NCBI GenBank assembly: GCA_017514025.1
Contig: JAFWLB010000002.1
Span: 250,346 to 314,345, forward strand
Direction of reading: 5' to 3'
Length of the DNA stretch: 64,000 bases
Origin: Candidatus Saccharimonadota bacterium
GTDB lineage: Bacteria > Patescibacteriota > Saccharimonadia > Saccharimonadales > Saccharimonadaceae
Shown here piece after piece: positions 936 to 21,402 of the stretch. The position numbers were made by a program, and so were the translations under genes. Position 1 is the stretch's first letter; the number at the start of each line of letters is the position of its first letter. The notes beneath the pieces were generated by a model. That model did no database searches. It saw nothing but the letters and a program-made list of their open reading frames with translations, and was not told where the DNA came from.

Positions 936-2558
936 ATGGATGAGAGTGAAATTCAGCAAAAGCGACGAGAAAATGAGGAACGAGCGACGGCGGAACGGGC
1001 GCGGATTTTGGGTTTGCCGTATTTGGATACTAGGGATTTTGAAAATGAAATAGGATTGGTGCCGGGACTTCTAGAAATAGAGCAGATGCATCGGGATTTT
1101 ATAATTCCCTTGCAGCGAGGTGGGGGCGAAGAACATTTTCAGTTTATGGTGACCAGTCAAACGCCGCGGTCGGTGATTGAACAAATGCGACAAAAATACA
1201 CAGATGAAGGTGAGCGAGCGGATTTCTTTCTGATTTCGAATTCGGCGTATAAAGTTTTTATGTTGCGTTATGATCCGCCGAAAGAAATTCATTATGATGA
1301 TATTAAGATTGCGGGTGAGGGGGATTCAGAGACGATTGCGAGCGTGTCGCGAACTTTGAATATGGTGTCGACGGAGCGAGTGTTTGACTTTTTGATTGAG
1401 CAGGCGGATAAATTGGGGGCGAGCGATATTCATATTGAAAATATGCGACGAGAAATTCGGATTCGGATGCGGGTAGATGGGATTTTGCATCCGGTGGCAA
1501 ATATTGATCGAGACCGGTACCGGATTTTTATGGGGGAATTGTCATCACGAGCGAATGTTTCGATGGCTTCGAGCAAGCCGCAATCCGGACATATGCAAAA
1601 AGATATTACGCGGGATGGGGCGACGCATCTTTTGAATATTCGTGTGGAAACGATCCCGACGATGTATGGGCAGGATGCGGTGCTCCGGTTGTTTAATTTT
1701 GATGAGACTTTGCTGAATTTGGATCTTCTGGGCTTGTCGGAGGAGGAGCGTGCTGAGATTAATGAAGTGATTTCGCATCCGCGGGGTTTGGTATTAATGG
1801 TAGGGCCAACTGGTTCTGGTAAGTCGACAACTTTGTATTCGATTTTGAATGCGCTGAACACGTCGGATCGAAAAATTATTACTTTGGAGGATCCGATTGA
1901 ATATGGGATTACGGGAATTTCGCAAATTCCGATTCATACGGGCGATGGAGGGTCGTTTGCAGAGGGGCTTCGTTCGGTGCTGAGGTTGGATCCGGATGTA
2001 GTGATGGTGGGGGAGATTCGGGATGGCGATACGGCAAAAACAGCAATTCAGGCGTCGATTACAGGGCATTTGGTGTTGTCGTCTTTCCATGCAAATTCGA
2101 CTTCGGCGGCGTTTTCGAGGATGATTGACCTGATCGGGGTAAATCCGATTTTCTCATCGTCGATCCGACTGGTAGTGGCGCAGAGGTTGGTGCGGAAATT
2201 GTCTTCGTCAAAGCGAGAACGGGCGGCGACGGAAGCGGAAGCGAAATATGTGCGGGAAGTTTTGGAAGGAGTGGCGGCCGAGAAGTTGGAGGGGATGAAT
2301 TTGGATGAGATTAAATTGTGGGATCCGGTGGTGACCGAAGGAGATCAGTTTGGTTACTCAGGGCGGACGGTGATTATGGAGCAGTTGGTGGTCTCGGAGG
2401 ACATTCAAGCGTTTATCCGGGGGGATGTGACGGATGTGAGTACGGATGCAATTGAAAAAGTGGCAAAGAAGAATGGGATGTTGACGTTGGAGCAAAAGGG
2501 AGTGATTATGGCACTCAAGGGCGAGACAACTTTGGAAGAAGTGGCGCGTGTGATATAA
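936..2558 (+). CDS. pilB: Type IV pilus assembly ATPase PilB/GspE
   Basis: This is a 540-residue type II/IV secretion family ATPase that would power pilin polymerisation at the inner face of the membrane. The Walker A motif GPTGSGKST lies near residue 290, an Asp box (GASDIHIE) near 160-170, Walker B in DVVMVGEIRD near 350 and the His box in GHLVLSSFHANS near 375. An N-terminal region of about 130 residues precedes the ATPase core. The zinc-binding tetracysteine of the C-terminal subdomain is absent: the whole protein has no cysteine and reads LVRKLSSSKRERAA where CxxC would start. A perfect TATAAT at 924-929 lies 7 bases before ATG, so the mRNA should be leaderless. The pilin operon is at 8428-11529. 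Confidence 0.95.
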   Translation: MDESEIQQKRRENEERATAERARILGLPYLDTRDFENEIGLVPGLLEIEQMHRDFIIPLQRGGGEEHFQFMVTSQTPRSVIEQMRQKYTDEGERADFFLISNSAYKVFMLRYDPPKEIHYDDIKIAGEGDSETIASVSRTLNMVSTERVFDFLIEQADKLGASDIHIENMRREIRIRMRVDGILHPVANIDRDRYRIFMGELSSRANVSMASSKPQSGHMQKDITRDGATHLLNIRVETIPTMYGQDAVLRLFNFDETLLNLDLLGLSEEERAEINEVISHPRGLVLMVGPTGSGKSTTLYSILNALNTSDRKIITLEDPIEYGITGISQIPIHTGDGGSFAEGLRSVLRLDPDVVMVGEIRDGDTAKTAIQASITGHLVLSSFHANSTSAAFSRMIDLIGVNPIFSSSIRLVVAQRLVRKLSSSKRERAATEAEAKYVREVLEGVAAEKLEGMNLDEIKLWDPVVTEGDQFGYSGRTVIMEQLVVSEDIQAFIRGDVTDVSTDAIEKVAKKNGMLTLEQKGVIMALKGETTLEEVARVI

Positions 2559-2569
2559 TAGGTGTTATT

Positions 2570-3319
2570 ATGAGTGAAAAAGTTGTTTCAGATTACAATG
2601 GCTATGATTACAAAACTGAGTTTTGGGAAAAGACTGATCGAGAATATGAAGATCAGGCGGACCGAATGGCGATCCGGAAACTTTTGCCGAAGCGGATGGA
2701 AAAGTTTGCGGATATTGGCGGGGGTTACGGGCGGCTCGCTAATGAGTATTTGAAACGAGCGCGGAAAGTATATATTTTTGATTATTCGAAGTCGGAGCTG
2801 AAGCAGGCTAAAGAGATTTATGGTGATAAGATTGAGACAAAGGCGGGAGATATTTATAAGTTGCCGTTTAAAGATGATGAGCTAGACGGTCTAATGATGG
2901 TGCGGGTGACGCATCATTTGAAATATATGGATAAAGCGATGAAAGAGCTTTATCGGGTGTTGAAACCAGGCGGAGTGGCGGTGATTGAAGTGGCGAATAA
3001 GCGGACTTTGCCGAAAATGGCGCGGTATGTGACTGGGCGCTCAAAGGTAAATCCGTTTGATTTGAAAGTGGCGAATTATAAAGAAATTTCGGCAGACGGG
3101 TTTTATAATTACCATCCAAAGTATGTGGAAAGGATTTTTGAGAAAACTGGTTTTAGGTGTGAAAAAGTTTTGTCGGTGTCTAATTTTCGGAGTAGAAGTT
3201 TGAAAAAAGTATTTGGGACGAAGAATTTGGTAAAAATGGAAGATAAGGCACAGAAAATATTGGCGGGGGTAAGATTTGCGCCGTCGATTTATTATAAGTT
3301 GCGGAAACCTGAAGATTAG
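2570..3319 (+). CDS. Class I SAM-dependent methyltransferase
   Basis: This is a 249-residue Rossmann-fold methyltransferase. Motif I is FADIGGGYGRLANEY (about residues 46-60), followed by an acidic strand end IFDYSKSELKQA and the motif IV/post-IV region ELYRVLKPGGVAVIEV near residue 130, as in UbiE/Methyltransf_11 proteins. The substrate is not evident. TATAAT overlaps the end of pilB (2554-2559) and lies 10 bases before the start, so the gene can be transcribed separately with almost no leader. The C-terminus is basic. Confidence 0.85.
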   Translation: MSEKVVSDYNGYDYKTEFWEKTDREYEDQADRMAIRKLLPKRMEKFADIGGGYGRLANEYLKRARKVYIFDYSKSELKQAKEIYGDKIETKAGDIYKLPFKDDELDGLMMVRVTHHLKYMDKAMKELYRVLKPGGVAVIEVANKRTLPKMARYVTGRSKVNPFDLKVANYKEISADGFYNYHPKYVERIFEKTGFRCEKVLSVSNFRSRSLKKVFGTKNLVKMEDKAQKILAGVRFAPSIYYKLRKPED

Positions 3320-3327
3320 GTTATAAT
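3299..3327 (+). promoter_or_regulatory. Promoter of the structured RNA / tRNA-Arg transcript
   Basis: TTGCGG (3299-3304), a 17-base spacer and a perfect TATAAT (3322-3327). The expected start falls at about 3333, exactly the first base of the 7-bp stem of the next feature. Confidence 0.7.
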
Positions 3328-17990: not shown

Positions 17991-19826
17991 TTACTGCAAA
18001 GCTTTGGTATTTGCGATAAGCCTGTCAAGAAAAGCTTGGCGGGCTTTTTCGGCGTTTTGGTTGTAGCCAGCCCAAGCATAAAGGGCGGGATCTTGGAGAG
18101 CGCGGGCAAAACTAAAGGTGACTGGCCAGGGGAAGGGGCCGTTTTTAATGATGGCGGCGAGATTGGCGGTGGCTTGTTCAACGGTTTGTCCGCCAGAGAG
18201 GAAGACTACGCCGGCGAGTTCTTTGGGGACGTGGTTTTTTAAGACTTTGGCGGTGGCTTTGGCGACTTCTTCTGGAGTGGATTGGTGTTCTTGTTGTTTG
18301 CCGGCGAGAACCATGTTGCATTTTAGGAGACAGCCGCGGAGATTGACATGGCGTTCTTTCAGTTTGGCAAAGAGGCAGTCGAGAATTTTAGCGGTGGCTT
18401 CAGCGCACTGATGGATGTCGTAAAAACCGTCGTAGACGACTTCGGGCTCAACGATGGGGACGAGGCCGGCGGATTGGCATTTTTCGGCATATTCGGCGAG
18501 GCGAGTGCAATTTTCGATAATAGCGTAGTCAGTGGGGGTGAGAGGGTTGCCGTGGTCGTCGAGGTGGATTTCGAAAGCGGCGCGCCATTTGGCGAAACGC
18601 AGACCCATTTGGTAGTATTCGGCGAGGCGAGCGTCGAGACCAACGAGGCCTTTGGTGTAAGTTTCGGTGTAATCTGGGGTTTTAGGGTCGGCAGCTTCGA
18701 TGGGGGCGAGGCCCTGGTCGACCTTGATGCCAGGGATGAGACGTTTGCCGGTGAGATAGTCGACGAAATTTTGGCCATTGTCGGCGAGTTGGCGAGCAGT
18801 TTCGTCAAAGAGGATGACGCCGTTGATGTATTTTTCGAGATCTTTGGTGGTGAAAAAGAGGTTGCGGTAATTGCGGCGGTTTTGGTAAGTATCAGGGATA
18901 TCTAGCTGCCCAAATTTTTTGTGGATACTGCCACCGGATTCATCGGCAGCGAGGATGCCTTTGGGGTACAAAACCAGATTTTTGGCGATGAGTTCGAGGT
19001 TGTTTTTGGCGGTAAAAGAGGTGGCGAGCTCTTGGAGTTGGGGAAGAGAAAGAGTGGAATTGAGGAGGGATTTTTCGATGTTGAGGCGGGCAAATTGGAG
19101 ACTGATTTCGACGGAGTGGCCGAGGACGAAGCTGGCGAGAATGGTCGCAGCGGCGATGGAATAAGTAGAGAGGTGAGTGGCGACGTTGATGCGGTTTACG
19201 GAGATGGTCTCGGAGACATCGGCATAAGAGAGAGCCTCAGCGGAAATATGAATGATTTTATTGGGGTCAATGGTGTCTAAGGCGGGCGCGTTTGAAATTT
19301 CCGCAAAAATTAGATCAGCTTTTTCTAGGAGAGAGTTTAAGTGATGATTGTTGGGCTCGCGAAGATAGATGACCAGTTTAGTATTGGGGGAGTTTTTGAG
19401 GTAATTTTGGATGGCTTCGGTGGTTTTGGCGGTGAGAGTAGCGGAACGATCCAAATAGAGGTAGTCTGCAGGTTGACTAGGGGGAGTGAAAGTAGTTTTG
19501 GTGAAATTAGTGGGGGAGAGATAGGAAACATCGCCATCAGAGACAAGGATGTAGCGGTGAGTGGCGGTATCAGCGGTGGGATTGTCGTCTTTGAAACTCA
19601 GAGTGGAACCAGAGATGGCGGCGTCGATACCGAATTTTTGGAGAACTTCGAGAGAAACGGCGGCACCGCCGAGGCTGGATTCACGGTGGAAAAAGCGGTG
19701 TTCGGAAGCGTTGAAGCTAAAGTCGAGCCATTTGGTGCCGAATTTGTCGGTTTCGAAGTTTTCGGTGCGAGAGTCGAGATTTAAGTAAACGTCTTTGGTG
19801 ACGTTGCCCACTACTAAGATATTCAT
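17991..19826 (-). CDS. Fusion: PfkB-like domain + class I fructose-bisphosphate aldolase
   Basis: A 611-residue protein. Residues about 1-270 resemble a PfkB/ribokinase-family sugar kinase (ILVVGNVTKDVYLNL; the GG of SSLGGAAVSLEVLQKFG at 53-54), but the catalytic GAGD motif is replaced by THLSTYS (about 217-223), so the Asp base is missing. Residues about 275-611 are a complete class I aldolase: LAADESGGS (Asp295), Lys368 in GIKVDQG, KWR at 413, Glu460/462 and the Schiff-base Lys502 in LLKCNMV. It should cleave fructose-1,6-bisphosphate, with the N-terminal half likely regulatory or structural. TAAAAT lies 6 bases before ATG. tpiA is nearby. Confidence 0.93.
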   Translation of the reverse strand: MNILVVGNVTKDVYLNLDSRTENFETDKFGTKWLDFSFNASEHRFFHRESSLGGAAVSLEVLQKFGIDAAISGSTLSFKDDNPTADTATHRYILVSDGDVSYLSPTNFTKTTFTPPSQPADYLYLDRSATLTAKTTEAIQNYLKNSPNTKLVIYLREPNNHHLNSLLEKADLIFAEISNAPALDTIDPNKIIHISAEALSYADVSETISVNRINVATHLSTYSIAAATILASFVLGHSVEISLQFARLNIEKSLLNSTLSLPQLQELATSFTAKNNLELIAKNLVLYPKGILAADESGGSIHKKFGQLDIPDTYQNRRNYRNLFFTTKDLEKYINGVILFDETARQLADNGQNFVDYLTGKRLIPGIKVDQGLAPIEAADPKTPDYTETYTKGLVGLDARLAEYYQMGLRFAKWRAAFEIHLDDHGNPLTPTDYAIIENCTRLAEYAEKCQSAGLVPIVEPEVVYDGFYDIHQCAEATAKILDCLFAKLKERHVNLRGCLLKCNMVLAGKQQEHQSTPEEVAKATAKVLKNHVPKELAGVVFLSGGQTVEQATANLAAIIKNGPFPWPVTFSFARALQDPALYAWAGYNQNAEKARQAFLDRLIANTKALQ

Positions 19827-19859: not shown

Positions 19860-20624
19860 ATGAAAAAAGTTTTAGCATTTGATATAGACCAAACATTAAA
19901 CGTAGCCAAGACGCCGATTACGGATGAGATTGGGGAGCTTTTGGTGAATTGTTTGGATTATTTCGAGGTTTGTCCGATTTCGGGGCAAAAATTCGACCAA
20001 TTTTTGATTCAAATTGTGGATAGGCTGCCAAATCCTACCCCGGCCCAACTAAGCCATCTGCACTTGTTTGTGGCCCAAGGAACGCAATATTACAAATTTG
20101 ATACTGAGAAAAACGACTGGGTGCAGATTTATAATTATCCGTTAACAGAGGAACAGGTGGCGAAGATTTCGGAGACGATCGAAAAATCGGCGCGAGAGCT
20201 GGGTTTTTGGGAAGAGGATAAGCTCATGGAGGGGGATGAGATTATTGAAAATCGGCTTTCGCAGGTGACTTTTTCGGCTCTGGGACAAAAAGCTGGGACA
20301 GAGGCGAAATACGCTTGGGATCCGGATTGCAAAAAGCGGGAAAAAATCGTGAAACGCTGCAAGGAGTTGGCGCCGGAGTTTGATTATGAGATCGGGGGTA
20401 CGACTTCTATAAATGCGATTACGCCAGGGATGAACAAGGAATTTGGTATGACACACCTTTTGGAGGAATTGAATGTGAAAAAAGAGGACATTCTCTATTT
20501 TGGTGATATGACGCAGCCGGGCGGGAATGATTACCCAGTGGTGGCGATGGGGATTGATACGATTACGGTGCGCAGCCACGAAGATACGGCTTTTGCCTTG
20601 CGTGGGATTTTGGGCGTGTTATAA
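19860..20624 (+). CDS. HAD-IIB phosphatase, phosphomannomutase-like
   Basis: A 254-residue HAD hydrolase. Motif I is LAFDIDQTLN (DxD), Lys/Gly elements lie in the cap-containing middle, and the C-terminal motif DILYFGDMTQPGGNDYPV closely resembles that of eukaryotic-type phosphomannomutases and sucrose-phosphate phosphatases. Activity could be a hexose-phosphate mutase or phosphatase. TATAAT (19845-19850) is 9 bases upstream. It lies directly before tpiA (7-base gap). Confidence 0.85.
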   Translation: MKKVLAFDIDQTLNVAKTPITDEIGELLVNCLDYFEVCPISGQKFDQFLIQIVDRLPNPTPAQLSHLHLFVAQGTQYYKFDTEKNDWVQIYNYPLTEEQVAKISETIEKSARELGFWEEDKLMEGDEIIENRLSQVTFSALGQKAGTEAKYAWDPDCKKREKIVKRCKELAPEFDYEIGGTTSINAITPGMNKEFGMTHLLEELNVKKEDILYFGDMTQPGGNDYPVVAMGIDTITVRSHEDTAFALRGILGVL

Positions 20625-20631
20625 TTGTTTT

Positions 20632-21402
20632 ATGAAAACATATATCGTGGGCAACTGGAAGCTGAATTTTACGGTGGGGGAGGCTTCGATTTATTTGCAT
20701 AAACTACTGAGGAAAATGTCAAATTACAGAGATGTAGAGGTGGCGGTGGCGCCTTCGACGATTGCGTTGCAACCATTGTCTTTGCAGGTAGATAGGCATA
20801 AGATGAAGCTGTGTGCGCAGAACGCATTTTACCGGGATTACGGAGCGTTTACGGGGGAAACTTCGTTTAATCAACTGAGAGGGGTGGCGGACTATGCGAT
20901 TATTGGGCATTCGGAGCGGCGGTATATTTTTGGGGAAGATGATAAGATGATTGCGAAAAAGGTGGCGGCGGCGGTGCGAAATCGGATTTCGCCGATTTTG
21001 TGTATCGGAGAAACAGAGAGCGAGCGGGCGTTTGGCGAGACGGCGGACGTGATTCAGGACCAGTTGGTATCCGGGCTAATGGACATTGCAGAGGATGATA
21101 TTGAGAAGGTGATAGTGGCCTATGAGCCGGTATGGGCGATTTCGTCGGTGAAAGCGGCAAAGTTGGCTACCCCTGATGAAATTGCAGAGGTAGTGAGAAT
21201 GATTCGGCAGATTTTGGTGGAAACTTACGGGGCGGAAAAGGGAGAAAAAGTGCCGATTTTGTTTGGGGGGAGCGTAAATTCGTCTAATGCGGGGGCGTAT
21301 TTGACCGTACCGGGGGTGAACGGGTTATTAGTTGGGGGTGCGAGTTTGATTTTGAGTGAGTTTACTGGTATAATAGAGGTGGCTAAGAGAGTGAGGTCAT
21401 GA
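20632..21402 (+). CDS. tpiA: Triosephosphate isomerase
   Basis: A 256-residue TIM-barrel enzyme interconverting dihydroxyacetone phosphate and glyceraldehyde 3-phosphate. Catalytic Lys is in VGNWKLN (residues 6-12), His in IIGHSERR and Glu in VAYEPVWAI; the phosphate loop is GGSVNSSNA and LVGGASL. The start at 20632 is supported by a TATAAT (20620-20625) ending 6 bases upstream and by family alignment; an upstream in-frame extension belongs to the previous gene. With the aldolase next door it gives lower glycolysis a local cluster. Confidence 0.97.
   Translation: MKTYIVGNWKLNFTVGEASIYLHKLLRKMSNYRDVEVAVAPSTIALQPLSLQVDRHKMKLCAQNAFYRDYGAFTGETSFNQLRGVADYAIIGHSERRYIFGEDDKMIAKKVAAAVRNRISPILCIGETESERAFGETADVIQDQLVSGLMDIAEDDIEKVIVAYEPVWAISSVKAAKLATPDEIAEVVRMIRQILVETYGAEKGEKVPILFGGSVNSSNAGAYLTVPGVNGLLVGGASLILSEFTGIIEVAKRVRS

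Follow-up and report, generated by a model that had tools for sequence, protein, structure and literature searches.

A PfkB-fold pseudokinase fused to a class I fructose-bisphosphate aldolase, and also found without it, in one family of Saccharibacteria

Kinase-aldolase fusions and regulatory relatives of sugar kinases are already known. In the bifunctional 5-dehydro-2-deoxygluconokinase/phosphogluconate aldolases (NF047869) and the KHG/KDPG aldolase-sugar kinase fusions (NF041633), one polypeptide holds both a PfkB-type kinase and an aldolase, which catalyse consecutive steps. The PfkB-type proteins FLN1 and FLN2 of the plastid RNA polymerase, together with yeast Gal3p, represent sugar-kinase folds in non-catalytic, regulatory roles (PMC3409070). 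In Nanosynbacter lyticus TM7x, a PfkB-type kinase lies beside a fructose-bisphosphate aldolase (FBA), and the two (TM7x_02415 and TM7x_02420) have been proposed as phosphofructokinase (PFK) and FBA (PMC12815258). That phosphofructokinase is missing from Saccharibacteria and other CPR bacteria is a long-standing puzzle (PMC7304191, PMC8386444, PMC6031116).

Here we describe a gene for a PfkB-fold pseudokinase joined to a class I FBA, found in a stretch of 64,000 nucleotides from a Candidatus Saccharimonadota bacterium (hereafter the window). Its architecture recalls that of NF047869 and NF041633, but the aldolase families and substrates of those fusions are different and the kinase of the window protein is dead by its motifs; the two profiles gave weak local matches to the kinase part only, far below cut-off. 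The whole C-terminal half resembles class I FBA (PF00274, NF033379), down to the nine catalytic residues checked, and what the window protein adds to that enzyme is the N-terminal pseudokinase extension. PfkB and FBA are genomically linked in TM7x as in the window fusion, but there as separate genes; in the related genera examined, the FBA neighbouring a second type of PfkB is class II, unlike the class I enzyme of the fusion. As a putative regulatory pseudoenzyme of the Gal3p/FLN type, the window pseudokinase itself shows a kinase fold, motif loss and purifying selection. Close sequence kinship to these proteins is lacking, however, their partners and context are unrelated, and Gal3p is a galactokinase-family protein, not a PfkB. 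In the openly licensed papers searched we found no report of a PfkB-class I FBA fusion, of its decay to a pseudokinase fusion or of the release of the pseudokinase. The window's family (f1) holds side by side the intact fusion, the pseudokinase fusion, the pseudokinase with a decayed aldolase and the free pseudokinase, and these four coexisting forms are a rare stepwise record of a metabolic enzyme domain becoming a non-catalytic protein.

The fused gene and its two halves

The fused gene is a real open reading frame (ORF), and its features are collected in Table 1. Fusions recur across the family, in over 100 genomes independent of one another, which excludes chance or an assembly artefact. 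In a full-length structure model both domains were confident (pLDDT 91) and their placement relative to each other was not (pTM 0.65). The adjoining gene of the HAD family points away from the fusion in the window and in locus L192; in L004 and L055 the two have the same orientation, with the HAD gene about 20 bp upstream. The difference is a small local inversion.

Table 1. Features of the fusion locus, in window coordinates.
Feature	Position	Strand	Basis
Ribosomal protein L25 gene	17307..17987	+	Convergent neighbour, conserved beside fused and stand-alone pseudokinases
Fused gene, PfkB-fold pseudokinase and class I FBA	17991..19826	-	611 aa; ORF and family searches
Class I aldolase domain, residues 277-609	18000..18998	-	PF00274, 351 bits; PDB aldolases, E about 1e-79
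Lys502, Schiff-base lysine (muscle K229)	18321..18323	-	Alignment
Lys413 (muscle K146)	18588..18590	-	Alignment
Lys368 (muscle K107)	18723..18725	-	Alignment
Asp295 (muscle D33)	18942..18944	-	Alignment
Pseudokinase domain, residues about 1-270	19017..19826	-	AlphaFold pLDDT 89.5; VIA Z 20.8; hhalign 98.8%
THLSTYS, residues 217-223, replacing the D/RTGAGD catalytic and anion-hole motif	19158..19178	-	Alignment with intact fused and solo PfkBs
Asp126, DRSA motif, newly fixed (56/56); mostly Ser in intact kinases; directly after core strand	19449..19451	-	Alignment, model
Arg91, YRYIL motif, newly fixed (56/56); mostly His/Trp in intact kinases	19554..19556	-	Alignment
Asp12, invariant (56/56), aligned with the PfkB sugar-binding Asp (ribokinase D16)	19791..19793	-	Alignment
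HAD-family sugar phosphatase/phosphomannomutase-like gene	19860..20624	+	PF03332, 42 bits; synteny
Triosephosphate isomerase (TIM)	20632..21402	+	PF00121, 249 bits

Residues 277-609 scored 351 bits against PF00274 (curated Pfam cut-off 22.2) and 377 bits against the NCBIfam class I FBA profile, and aldolases in the PDB matched this half with E about 1e-79 in a sequence search. All nine catalytic residues checked are kept (D295, K368, K413, R415, E460, E462, K502, S544 and R575), as they are in 54 of 59 aligned homologues. An initial annotation of the window had listed Asp295, Lys368, Lys413 and Lys502 as retained; alignment bore this out for all four, which correspond to D33, K107, K146 and K229 of muscle aldolase, and added the five further residues. 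The C-terminal half is predicted to be an aldolase of working type.

The N-terminal half is far more diverged. Its match to the PfkB family (PF00294) stayed below the gathering cut-off of 25.8 bits, with 13.7 bits for the full protein and 16.7 bits for the N-terminal domain, and a direct sequence search of the PDB with the pseudokinase profile gave no match (best E 0.47), so that its kinship is visible only by fold and by profile-profile comparison. A profile of 41 pseudokinases aligned with one of intact PfkBs at 98.8% probability (hhalign, E 7e-17). An AlphaFold model of this half, built from pseudokinase sequences alone (pLDDT 89.5), matched structures of ribokinase, ketohexokinase, KDG kinase and adenosine kinase over about 240 residues with Z of 19-21; a structure match (VIA) had Z 20.8 over 244 residues at 3.1 A, and Foldseek gave E 7.6e-12 against ribokinase/ketohexokinase structures. 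Together with the lost catalytic motif, the ribokinase-like fold and the profile match uphold the initial annotation of this half as a PfkB-like pseudokinase, and the non-kinase fold that it had allowed for did not turn up.

Where the window protein has THLSTYS, aligned intact relatives read D/RTGAGDAF, as the initial annotation had surmised in noting the loss of GAGD. The motif is missing in all homologues read from genera g1, g8, g319, g340 and g4 as well, and kept in g6 and g341. Both ATP-site motifs of the intact relatives, NxxE and TDGxxG, are missing in the window protein. On the sugar side, Asp12, which aligns with the sugar-binding Asp of PfkB (D16 in ribokinase), and GG53-54 are kept, and the Asn after GG is lost. 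To judge by these motifs, the kinase half is dead, with both catalysis and ATP binding lost. Eight residues (G7, D12, Y14, L15, F38, G54, R91 and D126) are invariant in all 56 pseudokinases aligned. R91 and D126 align with, or directly follow, elements that presumably line the sugar site in the ribokinase fold. The alignment, and strand 122-125 of the AlphaFold model, which directly precedes Asp126, would place both residues at the old sugar pocket.

Origin of the fusion and its glycolytic setting

The survey of class I aldolases took in 380 genomes spread over the phylum and 393 from the class. In family f1 these aldolases are fused ORFs of about 565-680 aa. The exceptions are copies that are degraded or lie at a contig edge and, in a g4 genome, an additional broken solo copy (L101, G594:C7:99729-100724), which carries in-frame stop codons and occurs alongside that genome's own fused gene. 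Those detected elsewhere in the phylum are solo proteins, mostly 330-405 aa long. The fused aldolases form one clade (SH-aLRT 99), whose first split, with a support of only 82, separates g6 and g341 from all degenerate forms (g4, g319, g340, g8 and g1). In the alignment, the g6 and g341 fusions have TGAGD in the kinase half and all nine aldolase residues; in the window fusion, where the kinase site is lost, only the aldolase set is complete. On this phylogeny the fusion arose once, in one Saccharibacteria family. A survey for fused relatives that keep GAGD, proposed in the initial annotation, was thus answered by these sister genera, and the window's N-terminal half is a relic, derived from a fusion in which the kinase site was intact. 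The ancestral fusion was probably bifunctional, as the motifs of g6 and g341 suggest.

In related families of the order and class, an aldolase gene and an intact PfkB gene, each of them solo, are a few kb apart; in families f6, f154 and f157 this PfkB shares 46-52% identity with the kinase half of g6. Solo pairs encoded on a single strand (L112-L115 and L117) have the aldolase first and the PfkB second. This order is opposite to that in the fusion, so a simple read-through of adjacent genes was rejected and a rearrangement is needed. A record labelled Candidatus Nomurabacteria (L017, JAISOF010000017.1) was considered as a transfer to another lineage and rejected, since it holds the same protein as L093 (genome G655) of the window's family; its organism name is probably wrong.

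The window genome is 679 kb in size and 97% complete. Six-frame family searches, on which all gene absences given here rest, detected in it no PF00365 phosphofructokinase, class II FBA, transketolase or transaldolase, and the fused aldolase was the only FBA detected. A divergent PGI is present, and TIM adjoins the fusion. A second, intact PfkB with GAGD sits in a GAPDH-RpiB-Rpe-PfkB cluster; it is probably the orthologue of the TM7x PfkB, and presumably carries the PFK step. An intact PfkB gene was found in 33 of 34 genomes tested, among them the aldolase-free G458 and G494. The initial annotation had considered a relic of a phosphofructokinase-aldolase that would bridge a glycolytic gap. Descent from a fusion with an intact kinase, as preserved in g6 and g341, agrees with that proposal; bridging of a gap in the window genome is not supported, with the kinase half dead and a separate intact PfkB present. 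The comparison makes the PFK puzzle of Saccharibacteria and CPR bacteria testable, and offers two concrete PFK candidates: the PfkB present in almost every genome tested, and the g6 and g341 fusion, in which PfkB is intact.

In the sister genera the second-type PfkB adjoins a class II FBA, a split transketolase, Rpe and RpiB, an arrangement that agrees with the TM7x pair. Genera g6 and g341 have class II FBA and transketolase, both of which were absent in every pseudokinase genome tested of the lineage g1, g8, g319, g340 and g4; transketolase loss thus accompanies loss of the fused kinase, and wherever class II FBA and transketolase are lacking in the family, the fusion has become the sole FBA detected. 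No transaldolase was detected in g6 and g341. Transketolase without transaldolase makes it possible that the fused kinase originally phosphorylated sedoheptulose-7-phosphate for subsequent cleavage by the aldolase. A route of this kind, phosphorylation followed by aldolase cleavage, has been described for cellulolytic clostridia (PMC7029132).

Four genomes (G009, G123, G200 and G671) have transketolase and class II FBA with no transaldolase detected, and are candidates for a sedoheptulose-bisphosphate bypass via PfkB and FBA in Saccharibacteria. Transketolase is split in this family into separate genes for its N- and C-terminal parts (L158:1472-2335 and 2335-3327). Where genera lack the class I fusion, the same intact PfkB type instead carries at its N-terminus an uncharacterised domain of about 165 aa, for which Pfam gave no match (L158:5225-6724, L159:5291-6814 and L160:4949-6466), and lies directly behind the second PfkB; at that place g6 and g341 have a similar domain as a separate 150-aa ORF (L163:4728-5186 and L164:4070-4522).

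The pseudokinase with and without its aldolase

In the class survey, 13 g1 genomes gave no match to class I aldolase. The pseudokinase was kept in nine of them, although in one of the nine (G544) it is truncated where the contig ends and carries no weight as evidence; in the other four it was gone too, and it is therefore not essential. A complete stand-alone pseudokinase ORF of 261-271 aa was found in six genomes (G494, G527, G531, G687, G723 and G482). No class I aldolase was detected in these six, and no class II enzyme in the four tested for it (G494, G527, G531 and G482). Five further ORFs, of 429-475 aa, join the pseudokinase to a decayed aldolase remnant that has lost most catalytic residues (G458 and G511, the remaining two of the nine, and, from genomes that gave weak aldolase matches, G510, G596 and G699). 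By synteny, most stand-alone and decayed-tail pseudokinases lie at the fusion's own locus, adjoining L25 and TIM/HAD. Mapped onto the tree of pseudokinases, the presence of a full aldolase half switches six times (bootstrap range 5-6), with three changes needed for the stand-alone forms; the aldolase half has been lost or degraded independently about five to six times.

Pairs of stand-alone pseudokinases had dN/dS of 0.07-0.09, similar to the neighbouring TIM and L25, at dS of 1.2-2.4; dS is near saturation in most pairs, so these ratios are approximate. Their conservation is nevertheless clear, and the stand-alone forms are under strong purifying selection. In the fused pairs compared, both domains are in frame and under selection, and the N-terminal domain is the faster-evolving in most. 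The converse of a free pseudokinase, an aldolase without it, was not seen in g1 or g8 in the class survey, save one ORF cut at a contig end. The pseudokinase is thus the more persistent half in these cases.

As the best explanation, which we hold with some confidence but well short of certainty, we propose a single PfkB-FBA fusion whose kinase half was remodelled into a pseudokinase with a target of its own and has outlived the aldolase. Within one Saccharibacteria family, a class I FBA would have been joined a single time to a PfkB-type sugar-phosphate kinase, giving what was probably a bifunctional enzyme that phosphorylated a sugar phosphate and cleaved the resulting bisphosphate. On the branch that led to the window (g1, g8, g319, g340 and g4), the kinase half would have lost catalysis and ATP binding, and would have been kept and reshaped as a conserved pseudokinase whose invariant residues sit around the former sugar site. 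Because the domain outlives the attached aldolase, it probably has an aldolase-independent, non-catalytic role. With the phosphotransfer side gone and the sugar side remodelled and fixed, its most likely role is that of a regulatory domain that binds a ligand in a remodelled pocket, where Asp12, Arg91 and Asp126 would be the invariant residues. It may act in regulation or as a scaffold, and in fused genomes may also tune the aldolase. A more specific form of this proposal, to which we give not quite an even chance, makes it a sugar-phosphate sensor of ultra-small episymbionts that rode on the aldolase, was freed several times by shedding it, and controls something else.

The nearest rival, which takes in the allosteric sensor suggested by the initial annotation, confines the pseudokinase to the aldolase, as an allosteric or structural module that tunes the fused FBA by sensing a sugar phosphate or by organising the oligomer. 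Every full-length g1 or g8 aldolase examined is indeed fused to a pseudokinase, and both domains remain in frame under selection. Yet in at least six genomes with no detectable aldolase (class II tested in four of the six) the pseudokinase stands by itself and is under purifying selection, and in others it is followed by a degraded aldolase tail that is catalytically dead. Tuning of an attached aldolase cannot then be the only role, and we regard this reading as unlikely. PfkB enzymes commonly dimerise, and the pseudokinase might instead be a pseudo-subunit of the second, intact PfkB, in a heterodimer regulating the phosphofructokinase step. The near-universal presence of that PfkB, aldolase-free G458 and G494 included, would suit such a partnership, as would the consecutive steps on which the fusion and the second PfkB would act. 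However, the two genes show no genomic linkage, the aldolase-free G477 keeps PfkB with the pseudokinase gone, and G596 keeps the pseudokinase with no PfkB found, which together leave the heterodimer rather improbable.

That the domain is a functionless relic, retained since its deletion would truncate or destabilise the aldolase, is very improbable: loss of the catalytic and ATP motifs and the faster evolution of the N-terminal domain in most fused pairs fit decay, but dN/dS is low across the whole domain, invariant residues have appeared that intact kinases lack, and several lineages keep the domain without the aldolase. An N-terminal half still active as a kinase through a shifted catalytic base, which the initial annotation had named as an alternative, can scarcely be credited. 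The PfkB fold, Asp12 and GG are all kept, but the catalytic Asp column falls on residue 221 or 223, depending on the alignment, and aligned columns 219-226 contain no acidic residue common to the 56 pseudokinases; the GAG anion hole has been lost along with the two ATP motifs, and elsewhere the window genome encodes an intact PfkB.

The decayed aldolase remnants behind two of the pseudokinases (L198:3544-4833 and L199:3647-4936) still had dN/dS of 0.11, and are possibly a second pseudoenzyme half under constraint.
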